Source of the DNA: a virus
Virus record (IMG/VR): IMGVR_UViG_3300021963_000062
Location: 33,016 to 97,015 of that record
Direction: 5' to 3' (one strand)
Length of the DNA stretch: 64,000 nucleotides
Part shown: in pieces, positions 2,451 to 52,405 of the stretch
Layout of the letters: each line of letters opens with the position of its first letter
Numbering within the stretch: position 1 is the first letter of the stretch
The notes under the pieces: model-generated
What the model was told of the DNA's origin: nothing
The model's database searches: none
Seen by the model: only the letters and a program-made list of their open reading frames with translations
Translations under genes and position numbers: made by a program

Positions 2451-3609
2451 CTGGCCAGTCAACCCTGCCAGTATAATCTCTAAAAATCCATTTACCCAAT
2501 GAATTCGTTGAAACTATTAAATCAGCAGAAATAACTTTTTTCCTCTTATAAACTGTGAAAAGAGAACTCCAATTAGAAATTGATTTAACTACCGTTTTTG
2601 AATAACAACCCGCCATCAGATCAAATACATTTTCAAAGATTTTTATAGTTCGAAGTAAGTATTTTATTTTAAATTTTTCTTTTGGTATTTTATTTTGATG
2701 TAAAGTTATAAACTTCTTAAGATAATAAGACTTATCAATTATATTATTTGGATATCTATCATAATAATATGAATAATACTTTTTAGGAATGTCAGAACTA
2801 ATATAGATTTTTTGATTAGGATTTTCTGAAAGAATAAAATTATCAATCAAATTAAAATAATCAGAGTCTGGTATAATTTTATACCTATTAACCCAATCAA
2901 AATCATTATTAATATTTTCTGATTCAAAAAATATTTTTTGTCTGTTTTTATCTTTTTTTAATAACATATCATAATACTTATATTTTCCAGAATTTCTATA
3001 TTCTTTTCCCAATCTATTTTTATGAAAATTTTCCCAATAAGAATCTATTGTTTCCTTTGGTAAAATTTTTTCTATTTCATTCAAAAATTTTTCAGTGGGA
3101 TATGTACCCAGCCCTCTGCGTAAATGTATGCAACAAACATCGGAAAACTCATTTTCCATAAAATTAATAGCTGTTGTCAACTTTAATTTTATTTTAGATA
3201 CACAATTGTGCAGTATTTCTTTATATGTTATATTTTTATAATCAAAAAAATGATATAAGTGATCAAAACAAGAGATAGAAAAGTCAAGATAATAATAAGT
3301 ATTTTCAGAACTATTTTTATAATCAAATTGTTCTGTTAAAAGAATGTCTCTAAATTTTTCACACGTTATTGGAATTAGTTGATTATTAGATGATTTTAAA
3401 ACCGAAACATCTTGAGCTGTAGTATTTGGCAAATTAATTAATAATAGTTCAGGCCAATAGTTATCTTCCACAATTATTTCAACATCTTTAATAATTGTAG
3501 AAAAATAATATGCTAGACTCCAAATAGCAATTCTATCTCCAAATCCACTGTCATGTTCAAATAAGTTATTACCCGCCCATGGTTCAAAACATATTAGTTT
3601 TATGGACAT
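2437..3609 (-). CDS. fucosyltransferase-like protein (390 aa)
   Basis: The centre carries HLRRG (about residue 158), the motif that binds GDP-sugar in fucosyltransferases of the GT11/GT23/O-fucosyltransferase superfamily. Further shared elements are FGDRIAIW near residue 25, YWPELL near 52 and QKIYISSD before a YPNNIID stretch. The same order of motifs occurs in the gene at 5216-6328, so the two are paralogues. The gene is more AT-rich than its neighbours, which suggests late acquisition. It abuts the amidinotransferase gene by one base. Donor and acceptor are unknown; family assignment is by motif only. Confidence 0.6.
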   Translation of the reverse strand: MSIKLICFEPWAGNNLFEHDSGFGDRIAIWSLAYYFSTIIKDVEIIVEDNYWPELLLINLPNTTAQDVSVLKSSNNQLIPITCEKFRDILLTEQFDYKNSSENTYYYLDFSISCFDHLYHFFDYKNITYKEILHNCVSKIKLKLTTAINFMENEFSDVCCIHLRRGLGTYPTEKFLNEIEKILPKETIDSYWENFHKNRLGKEYRNSGKYKYYDMLLKKDKNRQKIFFESENINNDFDWVNRYKIIPDSDYFNLIDNFILSENPNQKIYISSDIPKKYYSYYYDRYPNNIIDKSYYLKKFITLHQNKIPKEKFKIKYLLRTIKIFENVFDLMAGCYSKTVVKSISNWSSLFTVYKRKKVISADLIVSTNSLGKWIFRDYTGRVDWPDEIH

Positions 3610-4574
3610 TAGTGTTCTCTTTCAAGATCTAAAGTTACGCAATGAAAAAATCCGGCTAGGGTTCTACCATGTCTCCAAGGGAGCATTGCAGATTCAATAC
3701 CGTATTTTTCCAGTTCTTTTCTAGTTTCATGTTGGTGTTCTTCCAAAACTACTAGATTGGGATTAATACTAATAAGATTCAAATTCCCCCAAGGAGAAGC
3801 GTTATTATAACTGGCATAGTATCCAGTATCATAAGGTTCTGGAGCAAAAATAACATCCCAACTTCTAAAAGGTTCCGGGAGATCATCTTTAGATTTAACT
3901 CTAGATGGATTAACCATCACTAAACCTTCCCTCAAAAATGCAACTGTACTATCGATGTGAACATAACTGTATACACCTTGGAGTAAATGTACTCTAACTT
4001 CAGATCCTACAAGTTCTTGAAGTAACTCTGCACCTTTTATGTTACCAGTATTTGAAACAAGATAGAGGAGATCATTATTAGCTCTAATGATATTGGCAGC
4101 ATCAAAAGCAGGAGAAGATTCAGTTAAAGAAAGAATGTCTTTATTTCCAATACAATCTTCAGTGTACAATTCATCTTCACAAGAACAAGGAATGTGAATT
4201 AAATTGTCAAAATGGTGTGCAAAAGACTTCCAATTATTTTTTCTAGATCGTAAAGGCATTGGAGTTGCAATAGACAAATCTCCATGAGTAAAAATACAAT
4301 CTCTGGGACAAAAATTATAATATTCTGTTTCTTCTCTATTGGGTCTGACTACTTCTATTTGTTGACTTTTTAAAAATTCAACAAAAGTTTCCAAGTCTTC
4401 ATTAGCTTCTTCAATTACTTGTTGTGGATATTCGCCAATAACTACATCAATTACATCTTGTTTATCGGCATAATTAACAAATCTTAGAGACCTATCCATT
4501 TCAGGAACTCTAGCGTAATCTGCAACTCCTACGAGTACTTTTTTTAGAGGATCCCACTCATTTCTACTAGTCAT
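3609..4574 (-). CDS. amidinotransferase-family protein (AGAT-like)
   Basis: This 321-residue protein matches glycine or inosamine amidinotransferases, which move an amidino group from arginine to an amine via a cysteine thioester. The catalytic set is visible: Asp158 in FDAAN, His206 in VHIDS and Cys312 in GFFHCVTLD. The spacing (48 and 106) is close to that of vertebrate AGAT (49 and 104). CPRDC at about residues 89-93 is also typical. It sits between two fucosyltransferase-like genes, so a sugar or amino-sugar substrate is a reasonable guess. A hydrolase of the same fold cannot be excluded. Confidence 0.8.
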   Translation of the reverse strand: MTSRNEWDPLKKVLVGVADYARVPEMDRSLRFVNYADKQDVIDVVIGEYPQQVIEEANEDLETFVEFLKSQQIEVVRPNREETEYYNFCPRDCIFTHGDLSIATPMPLRSRKNNWKSFAHHFDNLIHIPCSCEDELYTEDCIGNKDILSLTESSPAFDAANIIRANNDLLYLVSNTGNIKGAELLQELVGSEVRVHLLQGVYSYVHIDSTVAFLREGLVMVNPSRVKSKDDLPEPFRSWDVIFAPEPYDTGYYASYNNASPWGNLNLISINPNLVVLEEHQHETRKELEKYGIESAMLPWRHGRTLAGFFHCVTLDLEREH

Positions 4575-4806
4575 TATTTTTAATAAATTCTTTTTCTAAT
4601 TCTTTTGCAAGTTTCATCGCTCTTCTCCACATTAAATATTTTACTATGGGATTACGAGGATTATTTAATAACCACCATTTGGTTTTCCCATACTCAAATT
4701 TCAAAAGTTTAGTAATAAAATAAAATGATCTTGCAACACTATCATCAGTTATGATAAAGTATGCAGCTATTACAAAGAGAAAAAACCAAATAGAATAATA
4801 TTCCAT
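4567..4806 (-). CDS. small membrane protein (79 aa)
   Basis: One hydrophobic segment at the N-terminus (IWFFLFVIAAYFIITDD) followed by a basic, helical tail. The stop overlaps the start of the amidinotransferase gene by 8 bases. Function unknown. Confidence 0.6.
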   Translation of the reverse strand: MEYYSIWFFLFVIAAYFIITDDSVARSFYFITKLLKFEYGKTKWWLLNNPRNPIVKYLMWRRAMKLAKELEKEFIKNND

Positions 4807-7431: not shown

Positions 7432-7638
7432 TTAAAATCCCTTTGATTTTGTTTTGGGTTTCTTTTTATCAAGAACTTCAAACAGATCTAGTTGACCAGT
7501 GGATGACCATTGGAACCAATAAACCTGGGCATCCTCCCAGTTATCAAACTCCATCGTCTTTCCGTTCTTAAAGAATAATTTATAGTCATGTCTATTATAA
7601 GGTAAATCAGAAGTTTGTGCAAAAGTTTTAATTGTCAT
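7432..7638 (-). CDS. hypothetical protein (68 aa)
   Basis: Contains YKLFFKNGKTMEFDNWEDAQ, a compact beta-hairpin followed by helix, and a basic C-terminus. Its start overlaps the stop of the LOG-family gene (ATGA). Function unknown. Confidence 0.6.
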   Translation of the reverse strand: MTIKTFAQTSDLPYNRHDYKLFFKNGKTMEFDNWEDAQVYWFQWSSTGQLDLFEVLDKKKPKTKSKGF

Positions 7639-8183
7639 AATAAAAGTCCTTTCAAAAGATGAGTAGCCTCAGAGAACCTATCAACATAATGAACTAAGTC
7701 CATATCTTCACTACTAATGAATCCATTATCAAGCATTTCTTCCTCAATCCAATGTTTGAGTGTTCTCCACATTCTACCAACACAGATAATTGGTTTCTTA
7801 TCCATGTGACTGACTTGAACTAACTGATAGATCAATGCCATTTCTAGGAGAGTTCCTACACCACCAGGAGTAACGATAAACGCATCGCACTCTGCGAATG
7901 TCTTAAGTCTGGAGTAGAAAGTCTGGTGTTTTTCATACTCCTGAACATACTTATTAACTCCTTCCTCAAAGGGAAGATAGATTGCTTCTGCAATAGAACA
8001 GAGGTGATCTCCACCGCATCCTTCTATTGCACCCTTATTGGCGGCTTCCATAGTTCCAGGGCCGCCTCCAGTTACTACTGTCCAACCTTGTGCAGAGATA
8101 TTTCTTCCGAGTTTTTCTACTGCCTTATAGAGATCGGATTCCGGATTCGTTCTTGCAGAACCAAAGATTGCTACTTTTTTCAT
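7635..8183 (-). CDS. LOG-family protein (TIGR00730-type Rossmann fold)
   Basis: 182 residues with the two hallmarks of the LOG/lysine-decarboxylase-like family: GGGPGTMEAA at about 39-48 and PGGVGTLLE at about 106-114. Members cleave the N-glycosidic bond of cytokinin-type nucleoside monophosphates or other nucleotides. In a phage it may process nucleotides or nucleotide signals; this is inference. It overlaps the Mom-like gene by 4 bases, so it belongs to the same operon. Confidence 0.85.
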   Translation of the reverse strand: MKKVAIFGSARTNPESDLYKAVEKLGRNISAQGWTVVTGGGPGTMEAANKGAIEGCGGDHLCSIAEAIYLPFEEGVNKYVQEYEKHQTFYSRLKTFAECDAFIVTPGGVGTLLEMALIYQLVQVSHMDKKPIICVGRMWRTLKHWIEEEMLDNGFISSEDMDLVHYVDRFSEATHLLKGLLL

Positions 8184-8833
8184 TTAAGTTTATAGACGTA
8201 AATGTGTTTACCAGGGGTTTCAATGTACTTTGCATCACCACTTTCCAAAGCATCTTTAACTCTTTGTGCGAAAGGCTTGAGATTTTTATTCCCATACCTA
8301 TCTATATGATAAGTTCGGATACATTTATCGTGATATATCTTACCATCATAATCAATAACACGACCCTTGGCAGTCATGCCACAATGTTCAAAGTTGGATG
8401 CCTTATAGATTGTACCCTGATGATTATGAAACGTGTCTGCGTAGGATACAACAACCTTATATGATGTGTTCTTCTTCAACCACCTCAGAGTTTTTCCAAT
8501 AAAATAACTCTCAGTATTTCTAGGAGTATTATCAATACAACAAAGACGACGTAGTTCTACAACTTGATCCTCAGAATCTGCATACTTTTTCCAAGTATTA
8601 GCCATTCCTAAAGGGCCATAGATCATAGCACCAATAAGATTTTCATTATAAAATAAACCAAAAACATTAGAGATTCTAAGACCATTAACATTAGAAGAAT
8701 AATGCCAAGTTTCAACAAAGTCTCTAACGTATTGAATGGTAGTAGGTTTGACTACAAAATCCTTTACGTTTACATCCCTGCAGTCAAGTTCTTCAAACAG
8801 TAGGGATGATAAAGGATTCATAGTGTTCATCAA
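8180..8833 (-). CDS. Mom-like DNA modification protein (GNAT fold)
   Basis: 217 residues resembling phage Mu Mom, which converts adenine in DNA to N6-carbamoylmethyladenine and protects phage DNA from restriction. Visible features are HYSSN near residue 45, FGLFYNENLIGAMIYG, VELRRLCCIDNTPRN and the late VVSYADTFHNHQGTIYKASNF block. These fit the Mom/GNAT arrangement. The first ATG gives a 41-base overlap with the upstream nuclease-like gene; an in-frame ATG at 8821 would shorten it. Mom is known to need acetyl-CoA-type cofactor and Fe; neither can be tested here. Confidence 0.75.
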   Translation of the reverse strand: MMNTMNPLSSLLFEELDCRDVNVKDFVVKPTTIQYVRDFVETWHYSSNVNGLRISNVFGLFYNENLIGAMIYGPLGMANTWKKYADSEDQVVELRRLCCIDNTPRNTESYFIGKTLRWLKKNTSYKVVVSYADTFHNHQGTIYKASNFEHCGMTAKGRVIDYDGKIYHDKCIRTYHIDRYGNKNLKPFAQRVKDALESGDAKYIETPGKHIYVYKLK

Positions 8834-9335
8834 ATTTTTTCTTTAGTTCGTCCCTAATGATAATTTTAACATCATTTACATGAGAAAGAAAGTCTTCCCA
8901 TTTATTCTCAACACCAAGATATTTAAAAATAGCTATTCCATGAAGGTGACGAATACCATCCTTCATGTAATCATTCTTTTTTCGATCTTCCCAATATGCA
9001 TAAATAGGAATCTTATTCTTTTCTGCGGCAGACTCCTTCAATTTAACATTGTTAGCCTTTTTAGAAGAAGAATTATCAGTCGCAGGATTCTTTTTTTGTT
9101 CAACAACGATACTAGAGTTCTCCCAATCAGTCTTACATCCAACTCCAAGATGTTTTGCTTCGGGGTCTGGATCCCACTCAGGAATTACTTCTTCAATATA
9201 ATCTCCAATTAATTGGGCAATACGACTGCCAAGAAACACACCACGATTTTCGGAAAGATCCAGTAGAAAATCATAATCAAACTGAGACACATCATAATTT
9301 TGGAGACGAGTCTTCAGGTTGTCAAGAGCAGACAT
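8793..9335 (-). CDS. putative PD-(D/E)XK restriction-type endonuclease
   Basis: 180 residues with no full family match by eye, but a catalytic core like that of type II restriction enzymes: Asp in KTDWEN, then VVEQKK about ten residues later (D...ExK), followed by NPATDNSSSKK. It is followed immediately by the Mom-like gene, giving a cleavage and protection pair. It could degrade host or rival phage DNA or be a degenerate homing-type nuclease. Assignment rests on the motif and the neighbour, so confidence is moderate. Confidence 0.5.
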   Translation of the reverse strand: MSALDNLKTRLQNYDVSQFDYDFLLDLSENRGVFLGSRIAQLIGDYIEEVIPEWDPDPEAKHLGVGCKTDWENSSIVVEQKKNPATDNSSSKKANNVKLKESAAEKNKIPIYAYWEDRKKNDYMKDGIRHLHGIAIFKYLGVENKWEDFLSHVNDVKIIIRDELKKKFDEHYESFIIPTV

Positions 9336-9337
9336 AA

Positions 9338-9369
9338 TAAAAAAAGGAGATCTCTTTAAGAGGTCTCCT
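9338..9369 (-). terminator. intrinsic terminator
   Basis: On the minus strand GGAGACCTCTT and AAGAGATCTCC form an 11-base stem with one G-T pair, followed by seven T. It lies just before the nuclease gene and overlaps the promoter region at 9371-9399, so upstream transcripts stop where a new one begins. Confidence 0.65.
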
Positions 9370-9493
9370 TATTATAGTGCGATAGTTCATCCTTGTCAAG
9401 GATTTTTTTTCGTTTTTTTGGTGGTCTATAAAGATTTGGCCAGGTATCTCTGATAATTTCCGCCAGTTTGTATGGTGTATCAGAACTAATCAC
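9356..9493 (-). CDS. possible small protein (45 aa, GTG start)
   Basis: GTG at 9493 lies directly next to the TAA of the upstream small gene. The product starts VISSDTPYKLAEIIRDTWPN and ends in a Lys/Arg-rich stretch. The frame runs through the promoter at 9371-9399 and into the terminator hairpin, which makes it less certain. Confidence 0.35.
   Translation of the reverse strand: MISSDTPYKLAEIIRDTWPNLYRPPKKRKKILDKDELSHYNKETS
9371..9399 (-). promoter_or_regulatory. perfect consensus sigma70-type promoter
   Basis: TTGACA (9394-9399) and TATAAT (9371-9376) with a 17-base spacer on the minus strand. It should drive the nuclease, Mom-like, LOG-family and following small genes early in infection using the host polymerase. 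Confidence 0.8.
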
Positions 9494-9631
9494 TTATCCG
9501 TAATACTTTGATAGTTTTGGGCAAAGATAAGGTCTTTTGCAAACTTCCCTGAATGGAAGAGTATCTAATACTTCCAATTCTTCATTTGAAAGTTCTCCCC
9601 AACGGAGATGTGCAAGGATATATTTAAACAT
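9494..9631 (-). CDS. small hypothetical protein (45 aa)
   Basis: ATG at 9631 overlaps the end of the thioredoxin gene. The product starts MFKYILAHLRWGELSNEELE and ends KLSKYYG. A helical protein; function unknown. Confidence 0.5.
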   Translation of the reverse strand: MFKYILAHLRWGELSNEELEVLDTLPFREVCKRPYLCPKLSKYYG

Positions 9632-9896
9632 ATTTTTCTAGCAGTTTTACAATGTTTTGGGTAATGGGTACTCCACCTTCATACTCTTCCAGTTTTTCTC
9701 CGTTTTCGTCAACCGCAATCAACACAGGAGTTGCAGTGACTTTATATTTTCTAGCAAGTTCTAGATTTTCTTGGCCGCATCCCTCATCAAGTAGAACTTC
9801 TTGGATTTGATCCGTTCTTGAATCATTCATGGCTTTAAAATATTTTTTAACCAGAATACAAGGCCCACAATCCGTCTTTGAAAAGATATACAACAT
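9624..9896 (-). CDS. thioredoxin-like protein (90 aa)
   Basis: Short thioredoxin fold with the redox motif CGPC at residues 10-13 and the cis-proline loop ATP at about 55-57. In T4-like phages such proteins reduce the class I ribonucleotide reductase, which this phage also encodes at 61.3-64 kb. The length is that of glutaredoxin-sized phage thioredoxins. A promoter (TTGACA-17-TAAAAT) lies upstream. Confidence 0.85.
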   Translation of the reverse strand: MLYIFSKTDCGPCILVKKYFKAMNDSRTDQIQEVLLDEGCGQENLELARKYKVTATPVLIAVDENGEKLEEYEGGVPITQNIVKLLEKYV

Positions 9897-11013: not shown

Positions 11014-12075
11014 TCAAAGTGCATTACCCCTTGGAAGTACTTCCTCTGGGAACACGAAGTTCTCATGAGGTTGGTCTACTGGTGCCATCCAAGCACGTAA
11101 ACCTTCGTTGAGCAAGATGTTCTTAGTATAGAAAGTCTCAAACTCCGGGTCTTCGGCCGCACGGATTTCTTGTGAAACGAAATCATATGCACGAAGATTA
11201 AGAGCGAGTCCAATGATACCAATAGAACTAGTCCAAAGACCCATAACGGGAACAAAAAGCATGAAAAAGTGAAGCCAACGCTTATTACTAAAAGCGATTC
11301 CAAAAATCTGAGACCAGAATCTGTTAGCCGTGACCATTGAGTAGGTCTCTTCTTCTTGGGTAGGTTCAAATGCCTTGAAGGTATTTGACTGATCACTGTC
11401 TTCATAAAGTGTATTCTCAACTGTTGCACCATGAATAGCACAGAGCAGTGCTCCTCCTAGTATACCAGCAACTCCCATCATATGGAAGGGGTTGAGTGTC
11501 CAGTTATGGAAACCTTGTAGGAATAGGAGGAACCTAAAAATCGCAGCAACACCAAACGACGGCGCAAAGAACCAAGATGATTGTCCGAGTGGATACATGA
11601 GAAACACACTGACAAAAACAGCAATAGGCCCAGAAAACGCGATAGCATTGTACGGTCTAATTCCTACTAAGCGAGCAATTTCAAACTGACGCAACATAAA
11701 ACCTATAAGACTGAAGGCTCCGTGGAGCGCCACAAAAGTCCAGAGTCCCCCAAGTTGGAACCAGCGGACGATATCTCCCTGAGCCTCAGGGCCCCAGAGA
11801 AGAAGAAGAGAATGACCCATAGAATCTGCTGGAGTACTAACTGCCGCAGTAAGAAAGTTTGCGCCCTCAAGATAACTGGATGCAAGGCCATGAGTGTACC
11901 AACTCGTAACGAAAGTTGTCCCAGTAAGCCAACCACCAAGAGCAAGATAAGCTGTGGGAAAAAGAAGTAATCCAGACCAACCAACAAAAACGAAACGATC
12001 TCTCTTAAGCCAGTCGTCAAGGACATCAAACCACCCCCTTTGTTGAATAGGTTGTTTTAGTGCAGATGAAACCAT
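11014..12075 (-). CDS. psbD: photosystem II D2 protein
   Basis: 353 residues, essentially the full length of cyanobacterial D2, with the five membrane helices and the C-terminal [16 protein letters not shown] end. D2 pairs with D1 in the photosystem II reaction centre of the thylakoid membrane. Phage copies keep photosystem II supplied while host synthesis stops. A strong AAGGAG site lies before the ATG at 12075. It follows psbA, separated by 90 bases that hold a hairpin. Confidence 0.98.
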
Positions 12076-12109
12076 TTATATCTCCTTTAAAAAACTTAAC
12101 ATTTTGGAT

Positions 12110-12134
12110 AAAAAGAAAGGGGATCTAAGTCCCC
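12110..12134 (-). terminator. intrinsic terminator or attenuator between psbA and psbD
   Basis: Minus strand GGGGA, six-base loop, TCCCC, then TTTCTTTTT. The stem is short, so it may reduce rather than stop read-through from psbA into psbD. Confidence 0.6.
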
Positions 12135-12165
12135 AATCTTCCTTAGTATTCAGTTTTTAGATATA

Positions 12166-13245
12166 TCAACCGATTGCAGGTGCGGTGAGTGCAACAGGAG
12201 TTGACTCAGCAGCAGCGAGGTCAAGAGGGAAGTTGTGAGCATTGCGCTCGTGCATTACCTCCATGCCCAGACCAGCACGGTTCAGAACATCAGCCCAAGT
12301 GTTAATAACTTTACCCTGACTATCAACGATAGACTGGTTAAAATTGAAACCGTTGAGATTGAAAGCCATCGTGGAAACACCAAGAGCGGTGAACCAGATA
12401 CCAACTACAGGCCATGCAGCAAGGAAGAAGTGCAGTGAACGAGAGTTGTTGAACGATGCGTATTGGAAGATGAGACGACCGAAGTAACCGTGAGCGGCTA
12501 CAATGTTGTAGGTCTCTTCTTCTTGTCCGAACTTGTAACCGTAGTTTTGGGACTCGTTTTCTGTTGTCTCACGAACGAGACTAGAGGTGACGAGAGATCC
12601 ATGCATAGCAGAGAAAAGAGAACCACCGAAGACCCCAGCAACTCCCAACATGTGGAAAGGATGCATGAGAATGTTGTGTTCCGCCTGGAAAACAAGCATG
12701 TAGTTGAAAGTTCCCGAAATCCCCAGAGGCATTGCGTCAGAGAAGGATCCTTGACCGAAGGGATAGACCAGAAAAACTGCGCTAGCAGCAGCAACGGGTG
12801 CGCTGTAGGCAACACAAATCCAAGGACGCATACCAAGTCGGTAAGAAAGTTCCCATTCACGGCCCATATAAGCATAGATACCAATTAGGAAGTGGAAGAC
12901 AACAAGTTGGAAAGGCCCACCGTTGTAGAGCCACTCATCTAGGGAAGCAGCTTCCCAGATGGGATAAAAGTGCAGTCCAATCGCGTTGGACGAAGGAATC
13001 ACAGCACCAGAGATGATGTTGTTTCCGTACATGAGTGAACCAGCAACGGGTTCACGGATACCATCAATGTCCACAGGGGGAGCACCGATGAATGCGATGA
13101 TGAAACAAGTCGTAGCAGCAAGCAGGCAAGGAATCATCAGGACTCCAAACCAACCAACATAAAGACGATTGTCGGTGGAAGTAACCCAGTTGCAGAACTG
13201 TTCCCAAGTATTTGATTTTTGTTGACGTGAAATTGTAGCAGTCAT
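12166..13245 (-). CDS. psbA: photosystem II D1 protein
   Basis: 359 residues, full length D1, with conserved helices and the processed C-terminal extension after NFPLDLAA. D1 is the fast-turnover reaction centre subunit that carries part of the Mn cluster and QB site. Phage psbA replaces damaged host D1 during infection. It has its own promoter and a structured leader of about 170 bases. Confidence 0.99.
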
Positions 13246-32463: not shown

Positions 32464-33307
32464 ACTCCTTTTTCATTTCATTAAAGACTTTTGCAATTCC
32501 ATCCTGAAGGTTGGTCTTTGGCATCCACCAACCAGTAATGTAATTATTGGCTTGATTTCTCTTGTCTAATTGAACACTATCTTTTGCAAGACCGGGTTTA
32601 ATTTTAACCTCATACTTACCAATAAGATTGAACTGACCTTGAATAATTTCTGCAACTTCTTTGATAGTGCTTCCACTGAAAGAAGTGATATGAAGAGGAT
32701 CCTCTGGTTTGAAATCAGTATACGATTCCATAACAGTCTCAAGAGCTTCGCAACAATCTTCCGCATACAAGAACTGACGTTCTTCTGTACCGTCAGTCAT
32801 CATCTCAAATTGACCTTCTTCAAATCCCTTACGAATAAAATCTGTGATTACGTGAGACTTTTCAACATCATGTTCAATGCCATAAACATTCCAGAAGTGA
32901 ACTGTAAGACCCTTGAGTGTTTGGGTATAAATTTCACCAACTCTCTTCATCACGCCATAAGGAGAGTAACTCATGTTACTCATCTGGGATGATGCAAATA
33001 CAAATCTCTTGTTGTACTTTGCAATCAGATCGAATGCATTGACCATCAATCTAGCATTATTATTGATGAAGTCAAAGGTATGTTGATACTTTTTGAGGTA
33101 TCGTGATCCACCAACATCAAATGCAAGGAAGAATACGAAATCACAATCCATAATTACACGATGGAGTTCTGGATTGGGAATTGTTGTCATGTCTTGGTGT
33201 TCACCATTCACAACATCAAACTCATGAACTTCATGACCCTTACCACGAAGATATTCTGTTAGGTAGGCACCGATCTGCCCACTGGAACCTAGTACTGTAA
33301 TTTTCAT
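32450..33307 (-). CDS. NAD-dependent sugar epimerase/dehydratase (SDR)
   Basis: 285 residues, extended SDR. VLGSSGQIGAYL at 5-16 and catalytic YGVMK at about 117-121. The sequence is not close to GDP-fucose synthase by eye. Works on a nucleotide sugar; substrate unknown. Confidence 0.8.
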   Translation of the reverse strand: MKITVLGSSGQIGAYLTEYLRGKGHEVHEFDVVNGEHQDMTTIPNPELHRVIMDCDFVFFLAFDVGGSRYLKKYQHTFDFINNNARLMVNAFDLIAKYNKRFVFASSQMSNMSYSPYGVMKRVGEIYTQTLKGLTVHFWNVYGIEHDVEKSHVITDFIRKGFEEGQFEMMTDGTEERQFLYAEDCCEALETVMESYTDFKPEDPLHITSFSGSTIKEVAEIIQGQFNLIGKYEVKIKPGLAKDSVQLDKRNQANNYITGWWMPKTNLQDGIAKVFNEMKKEYGYG

Positions 33308-50722: not shown

Positions 50723-52405
50723 ATGACTTTAAAAAAATATACTATCAGTGTAACTGAACCTCAGTATTGGCAGGAGATTCATGATCTCCTGTGTACTACA
50801 ACCTCATGCGAACATATTCCAGATAGAGAGGTTTCATGTCATGATGAAAAGGAACATAGTCCTACAAGAGGAACTTTTATTCTTCATGGCAACGAAGCGG
50901 AATCTTTAAAAAACCATCCCCATATTAGTTGGGTGGAATTGGATCCATCTTCATATCCAGATGAATATCCAAAACCATCACATTATATTAAAAGATGGAA
51001 TAAAAATGTAAAGGTTTATAGAGATTTGGGATCTAGTGTTCCAGTTACATCTGGAATAGCCAGTGTAGGAGAACTGGATAGAACTGGTTGGCAAATTGTT
51101 AGAACCGGTATTGGAACTGCTGGAGACTTCTGGGGAACATCGACTGGGGAAACTATTGGCCCAGTATCTGGTGATGTCAGTTACAGTTTAACTGGAAAAA
51201 ATGTCGATGTAATTATTCATGATTCTGGAGTACTTCAATATCATCCAGAATTTTTAGATACAAATAGTCAATCAAGAGTTAGAGATGTAATCCTAGATGG
51301 GCCATATTATATTGATCCAGACTACTTTAATAATGTAATACCTGGTGTTAAGTATACAAAGCCAGACGGTAGAGTTGGAATCGCTACAACTGCTGCAGAA
51401 GAATGGTGGGAACAGTCTGCAAAAAGATCTGCAGGTTTTTCAACAATAGGTACTTTAAGTGTTCCTGTAGATTATACGGTACAAAATACCATAGGTTCTG
51501 GTGGAACTTCACATAATCTTGGTGGTGGTCATGGAACTTCCTGTGCTTCTTTAGTCGCAGGTAAAAATTTCGGATTGGCATTCGAAGCCAATATTTGGAA
51601 TATGTGTGGAATTGGAGATAATACTTCAATTAGTATTGAACAAAATTATGATTTCATGAAACTGTTTCACATGTACAAACCAGTTAACCCTGAAACAGGA
51701 AGAAAAAATCCAACAGTAGTTAATGGTAGTTGGGGATATCAGGCAGCTTTCAGTTCTGCAAATACTGTAACTTATAGGTTCAGAGGAACTACTGGAACCT
51801 TTCTGGGAAATGCGGCTGTTACAGACCAAGTAACTGCAATGAAAAGTGGATTGAATAATCAGGTTGGTGGTGCTCTTGAATCATGGTCTTCATCTTCTCG
51901 TTCAAATTCCACTGATCAAGCGGCTTTAGAAATGATGGATACTGGAGTAATTTATGTGTGTGCTGCAGGAAATAATAATCAAAGACTTGGAGTTGGATCT
52001 ACTGATCCAGATCTTTTAAATTATATGTCAGACAATTGGTTTGGGACAACAGATCCAAGATCACATTTTCCATCCAATTGTGTTCCATGCAATCATAGGA
52101 ACTGGATGAATCCTCAAGGCATTGGATTTAATTCCACAACAGATGCAGAGTTTCATCCCGTTATTTGTGTTGGGGCGATGGATGATTTTATTAGTGCAAC
52201 TACTTTGCCTAGAGGAGAAACCAAAGCTTCTTATTCAAATAATGGCCCAGGAATTGATGTGTGGGCTCCTGCGGATGAAACTCTTGCTGCAGGATTACCA
52301 AACAATGGCAGTGGATATAATGATTTTCGTAGATATGATAATTCTCTACACTTTGATAAAACTTTAATGGAACTAGTGCCGCATCTCCTGTGGCTTGTGG
52401 ATTAA
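50723..52405 (+). CDS. subtilisin-like (S8) protease, 5' part, frame broken before the catalytic Ser
   Basis: 560 residues. Catalytic Asp167 (VIIHDSGV) and His270 (GGGHGTSCA) are present, as is the oxyanion region (CAAGNNNQ). The catalytic Ser motif is missing from this frame: after 52358-52361 the frame enters LMELVPHLLWLVD and stops. The Ser motif is found at once in the -1 frame. Adjacent to the fibre gene (two bases apart). May process virion or host surface proteins if the frame is restored. Confidence 0.85.
   Translation: MTLKKYTISVTEPQYWQEIHDLLCTTTSCEHIPDREVSCHDEKEHSPTRGTFILHGNEAESLKNHPHISWVELDPSSYPDEYPKPSHYIKRWNKNVKVYRDLGSSVPVTSGIASVGELDRTGWQIVRTGIGTAGDFWGTSTGETIGPVSGDVSYSLTGKNVDVIIHDSGVLQYHPEFLDTNSQSRVRDVILDGPYYIDPDYFNNVIPGVKYTKPDGRVGIATTAAEEWWEQSAKRSAGFSTIGTLSVPVDYTVQNTIGSGGTSHNLGGGHGTSCASLVAGKNFGLAFEANIWNMCGIGDNTSISIEQNYDFMKLFHMYKPVNPETGRKNPTVVNGSWGYQAAFSSANTVTYRFRGTTGTFLGNAAVTDQVTAMKSGLNNQVGGALESWSSSSRSNSTDQAALEMMDTGVIYVCAAGNNNQRLGVGSTDPDLLNYMSDNWFGTTDPRSHFPSNCVPCNHRNWMNPQGIGFNSTTDAEFHPVICVGAMDDFISATTLPRGETKASYSNNGPGIDVWAPADETLAAGLPNNGSGYNDFRRYDNSLHFDKTLMELVPHLLWLVD

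Follow-up and report, generated by a model that had tools for sequence, protein, structure and literature searches.

The nuclease and Mom genes and their control region

We analyzed a 64,000-nucleotide (nt) stretch of viral DNA, hereafter called the window (positions 33,016 to 97,015 of IMG/VR record IMGVR_UViG_3300021963_000062). On its minus strand, a gene for a predicted PD-(D/E)XK-type nuclease (8793-9335; 180 amino acids [aa]), which belongs to no named family, overlaps the gene of a GNAT-related Mom DNA-modification protein (8180-8830). The virus record carrying the window is 97 kb long, encodes psbD and psbA, and shows DNA matches to Synechococcus and Prochlorococcus phages; the virus is a cyanophage. 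It is probably of the T4 type, because phages DSL-LC03 and S-SSM7, the nearest named bearers of related Mom proteins, are Kyanoviridae. An earlier reading of the same DNA (the original prediction) had described a Mom-like modifier and a candidate restriction nuclease overlapping under one consensus promoter. Both open reading frames (ORFs), the promoter and the existence of an overlap were found at these positions.

The Mom-like call proved well founded. The protein matched PF25680 (1.2e-35; 123.5 bits against a Pfam cut-off of 27.1) and phrog_1384 of PHROG (2.4e-60). It is 24% identical to Mom of phage Mu, and a seven-sequence alignment including both proteins contained 26 invariant columns, among them H44-Y45-S46, S109, D133 and Y143. 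On these sequence matches, the Mom family identity of 8180-8830 is secure. Mom-like genes are common in phages (285-328 records). In some contigs (L060 at 3295-4657, L061-L063 and L080), two distinct Mom-family genes stand in tandem and overlap, replacing the nuclease-Mom pair; the upstream gene of the L060-type tandem matched PF25680 at 1.3e-18. In others, Mom is immediately preceded by a putative DNA methyltransferase gene (L066 at 1-2030 and L067, called from a PPY-type sequence motif; L114 at 532-2043, called from annotation), the two forming combined modification modules.

The overlap was originally given as 41 bp, which requires a TTG start at 8833. An ATG at 8830 gives 38 bp (8793-8830) and a Mom protein of 216 aa. 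Because an ATG start with a 38-bp overlap is found in the window and in most distinct loci of both nuclease subfamilies described below (a few use 29, 32 or 41 bp), the most likely Mom start is the ATG at 8830. The frame of Mom relative to the nuclease is constant across loci.

Upstream of the nuclease lies a sigma70-type promoter, TTGACA-17-TATAAT (9399-9371, minus strand), which matches the consensus at 12 of 12 positions, as originally claimed. The promoter is of the early type and is also conserved: of 31 loci, 21 (including all 15 of subfamily A) had a match of at least 10/12 no more than 100 nt upstream, against 0.63 expected from mononucleotide shuffles. Terminator-like hairpins occurred upstream of the nuclease in 19 of the 31 loci, with 0.2 expected from the same kind of shuffles. 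The hairpin of the window, followed by a T-run, lies after the -10 element and before the nuclease ATG (9336-9370, minus strand); in several loci, the hairpin loop and the -35 TTGAC share bases.

Two diverged nuclease subfamilies

The window nuclease had no family match in Pfam, NCBIfam or PHROGs, and PADLOC returned no confident family. IMG/VR searches yielded 22-27 relatives of it (subfamily A), and a second nuclease type (subfamily B) was found beside Mom in other contigs. The annotated phage set contained no member of A, and its sole B protein was that of Synechococcus phage DSL-LC03, labelled a type II restriction endonuclease; the DSL-LC03 paper discusses neither Mom nor the nuclease. 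A scan of GTDB with the B profile detected no bacterial relative, and a plasmid search detected none.

The D...ExK residues noted in the original prediction are real. D70, E79 and K81 (D-x8-E-x-K) were invariant in 14 of 14 aligned A relatives. The candidate catalytic aspartate is encoded at 9126-9128 and the candidate catalytic ExK at 9093-9101, both on the minus strand. Members of B carry D...Q-x-K, with Q in the place of the ExK glutamate, and the spacing D-x8-[E/Q]-x-K-x16-KL is common to A and most B members. In a joint alignment, the window protein was 20-25% identical to B members, and comparison of the two profiles gave an hhalign probability of 92 (E 5e-7). Judged by these comparisons, A and B are remote homologues that have deeply diverged. 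The median ratio of nonsynonymous to synonymous substitution rates (dN/dS) was 0.18 for A and 0.21 for B; both subfamilies are under purifying selection.

The AlphaFold model of B had a predicted local distance difference test score (pLDDT) of 90, and its best match in the PDB was EcoO109I (Foldseek probability 1.00, template modeling [TM] score 0.61, E 5e-3). We regard this match as support, not proof, because no Foldseek match fell below 0.001. B also gave a weak, below-cut-off signal for the Pfam EcoO109I family (PF14511; E 0.0088, 16.3 bits against a cut-off of 22.5) and a weak signal for Endonuc_Holl (E 0.013). Subfamily A had no PF14511 profile match. PDB sequence searches with the A and B profiles returned chance matches only, and a search for the EcoO109I family found no match in the virus's own record or in any of 14 control genomes and so carries no weight either way. 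The window model had a mean pLDDT of 80. By inspection, its helices and strands follow one another in an order parallel to that of the B model, starting at the ENRG helix. Thus, the fold check proposed for 8793-9335 came out divided: the protein's own model found no match, and the homologous B model matched EcoO109I. It is on the basis of the invariant residues and of homology to B that we predict 8793-9335 to encode a PD-(D/E)XK-type nuclease.

Linkage to Mom, nuclease exchange and genomic surroundings

Searches based on the nuclease only gave 27 A and 25 B records, which together with the window and DSL-LC03 make 54. Mom was located directly downstream, overlapping in the same relative frame, in 52 of the 52 records that were not truncated, an arrangement beyond chance. 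Mom was found without the nuclease in S-SSM7, in contigs L045, L066, L070 and L071, and in most other phages examined. The nuclease is thus dependent on Mom and Mom is independent of the nuclease, which is the pattern expected of a toxic cutter and its protector. Coordinated production of the two proteins, also part of the original prediction, is supported by the shared conserved promoter, the conserved overlap and this obligate co-occurrence.

Other nuclease genes were seen next to Mom as well. In Geobacillus phage PK3.6 (L003, 2514-3696), an HNH endonuclease gene and the start of the annotated Mom gene share about 59 bp; this may be an independent pairing of a nuclease with Mom. In Microbacterium phage MenE (L113, 978-2130), there is an 8-bp overlap between a gene with a ParB-like nuclease domain and one for a Mom-like acetyltransferase.

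A tree of Mom sequences from which the overlap region had been removed showed A and B partners intermingled, with six changes, and a single clade was rejected (approximately unbiased [AU] test, p 3.4e-5). Mom proteins that are 92-94% identical stood beside A in one contig and beside B in another. Three comparisons (L106 with L046, L009 with L046, and L030 with L093) revealed homologous flanks on both sides, the nuclease ORF alone being unalike. The right breakpoint lay inside the overlap, no more than a few tens of bases from the end of the nuclease gene, and the left breakpoint at or upstream of the promoter and start region. The nuclease has been replaced repeatedly by a diverged subfamily while Mom was retained.

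These borders recall the promoter early stem-loop (PeSL) cassettes of T4-like phages, promoter-terminator elements that are said, in a passage of PMC4503421 citing Arbiol 2010 and Comeau 2014, to mediate shuffling. As those cassettes are portrayed there, an early promoter and a stem-loop stand at the edge of the exchanged genes. The same combination of promoter and stem-loop terminator was found here (promoters in 21/31 and hairpins in 19/31 loci), so that promoter and hairpin of the window form a PeSL-like composite. The exchange described here differs in its two borders, a PeSL-like one on the left and the Mom overlap on the right.

The restriction and modification genes of classical systems need matching specificity. 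Because the nuclease is nevertheless exchanged next to Mom, either the protection by Mom is broad or A and B have equal specificity, as the data suggest. The more far-reaching idea, that one broad non-methyl mark serves as general protection and lets nucleases of differing specificity be exchanged freely beside Mom, against the rule of a shared recognition site, is put forward tentatively; we consider it possible, with the odds somewhat against it.

The surroundings of the cassette vary. In the window, psbD and psbA (11014-13245, minus strand) lie 1.7-4 kb upstream of it. In contigs L012, L037, L038 and L039, the cassette comes immediately after psbA or psbD, a recurrent insertion region. Overall, psbA or psbD was present within about 4 kb in about 8 of the 31 loci, with other contexts elsewhere; many contigs are short. 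Just upstream of the cassette, the window encodes a small thioredoxin-like protein (9624-9896, minus strand; Thioredoxin_2, 3e-9) with a near-consensus promoter of its own (9949-9921). Downstream, a gene for a TIGR00730/LOG-type SLOG protein, assigned by family searches (7635-8183, minus strand), overlaps the end of Mom by 4 bp. It was considered as a third component and rejected: although it belongs to the same operon in the window, it was absent from all related Mom loci. The SLOG protein weakly resembles the SLOG domains of ThsA and PsyrA. Far from the cassette, 50723-52405 (plus strand) encodes a 560-aa subtilase-family (Peptidase_S8) protein, preceded by a 1094-aa ORF without a Pfam match.

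A predicted self-sparing operon and its alternatives

We propose, with a probability of roughly 0.6, that the two genes form a phage-borne operon resembling a restriction-modification (R-M) system, in which Mom protects phage DNA and the nuclease cuts unmodified DNA of the host or of rivals. Mom would add a bulky group to adenines of the phage DNA, as its family membership suggests. The small nuclease, whose gene overlaps the Mom start with its 3' end, would be produced from one transcript with Mom and would cut DNA lacking the Mom group, that is, the host chromosome, competing phages or plasmids, or several of these. Incoming virion DNA, marked in the previous cycle, would be spared. The replacement of the nuclease under a kept Mom suggests that the mark may be broad enough to act against more than one nuclease specificity.

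Several points weigh against this proposal. We infer both cleavage and adenine modification from sequence and models, and Mom in these phages would have to cover the nuclease sites. The window nuclease model, in which the D70 loop has a pLDDT below 50, found no nuclease-fold match in the PDB or BFVD, and neither nuclease passes any curated family cut-off. Activity of B is less certain, since its ExK glutamate is replaced by Q. Furthermore, most of the records behind the linkage are cyanophage metagenomic contigs and not fully independent of one another.

If the upstream protein were a nuclease of phage DNA metabolism, acting in recombination, repair or packaging, and Mom an ordinary anti-restriction gene sharing the operon by chance, one would understand why most phages with Mom have no such nuclease; PD-(D/E)XK proteins do include Holliday-junction and recombination nucleases, in line with the weak Endonuc_Holl signal of B. 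Mom would be dispensable to a nuclease of general phage function, yet in the 52 untruncated records this one never appeared without Mom. Both subfamilies have retained the exact overlap, and the best structural match of the B model is a type II restriction enzyme. We therefore judge this explanation unlikely. Cyanophages are known to carry a homing endonuclease near psbA and psbD, F-CphI of S-PM2. A selfish cassette that carries Mom as linked cargo and spreads because its nuclease cuts phage genomes devoid of the cassette would fit the proximity to these genes in about a quarter of the loci, the PeSL-like borders and the allelic replacement between homologous flanks. It fits poorly with a genomic context that varies between loci and a nuclease that never travels without Mom. 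Nor does homing require that two nucleases alternate at one site beside a fixed Mom, and we hold a homing origin to be quite improbable.

The two remaining alternatives concern the activity of the upstream protein. In Mu, com overlaps the start of mom by 80 bp, and Com is described in a passage of PMC6483171 as a translational activator of Mom. The upstream protein might accordingly be a Com-like regulator or specificity partner and not an active nuclease, for which the missing canonical ExK glutamate of B could also be adduced. Mom occurs without any such protein in other phages, however, and two unalike versions alternate upstream of it; we give the idea very little weight. A modification-dependent nuclease, attacking DNA momylated by rival phages in place of unmodified DNA, would find targets, since Mom-like genes are widespread and rivals bear such marks. 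Such an enzyme would attack the phage's own Mom-marked DNA, and the obligate presence of Mom beside it points to protection instead of targeting, making this the most implausible of the readings considered.

The proposed R-M-like operon, in which Mom would shield phage DNA from the nuclease, has a published precedent. For jumbo phages (group 2), Iyer et al. (2021, PMC7824862) reported Mom domains fused to nucleases of the restriction endonuclease (REase) fold. They proposed a division of roles, momylation shielding the phage's own DNA and the nuclease being directed against DNA of the host or DNA from superinfection. The self-immune weapon of the original prediction gains support from this precedent and from the invariant residues, the obligate co-occurrence with Mom and the EcoO109I-like fold of B; as an idea it had already been published, for another phage group. 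The cyanophage pair is comparable in that Mom is coupled to a predicted nuclease of this kind and in the proposed logic of self-protection and attack. It differs in that the two proteins are encoded by separate, overlapping ORFs of T4-type phages instead of one polypeptide, with two interchangeable nuclease subfamilies and PeSL-like control. This overlapping-gene form in cyanophages and the exchange of the nuclease under one modifier are what is new here; neither was found in the literature searched, the coverage of which was incomplete.

Type II R-M systems, and EcoO109I in particular, offer another parallel: a small standalone nuclease adjoins a DNA modifier and is never found without its protector, and the B model resembles EcoO109I best. 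In contrast to them, the partner here is Mom and no cognate methyltransferase, the system is phage-borne, the nuclease is exchanged without the modifier, and the similarity stays below the Pfam EcoO109I cut-off. Mu Mom belongs to the same enzyme family as the Mom protein described here and likewise starts inside an overlapping upstream gene, which encodes the zinc-finger activator Com in Mu and a predicted nuclease in the cyanophages. Phage T4 produces endonucleases that degrade host DNA, its own DNA being protected by glucosylated hydroxymethylcytosine (glucosyl-hmC). The predicted logic is the same, in that the phage nuclease leaves modified phage DNA intact and breaks down host DNA that lacks the modification; here, the modification would be on adenine and made by Mom, the nuclease is of another family, and the two genes are tightly linked in one operon.

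The pairs supply small new candidate restriction-type enzymes. Whereas the jumbo-phage prediction rests on fusions, separable genes allow nuclease-only and Mom-only tests, and the exchange of the nuclease under a constant Mom would offer a natural test of the breadth of momylation protection. If the proposal is true, the cyanophages are armed with a compact weapon of two genes, which tells self from nonself DNA by the Mom adenine mark, with consequences for the destruction of host genomes, nucleotide scavenging and the competition between aquatic phages.
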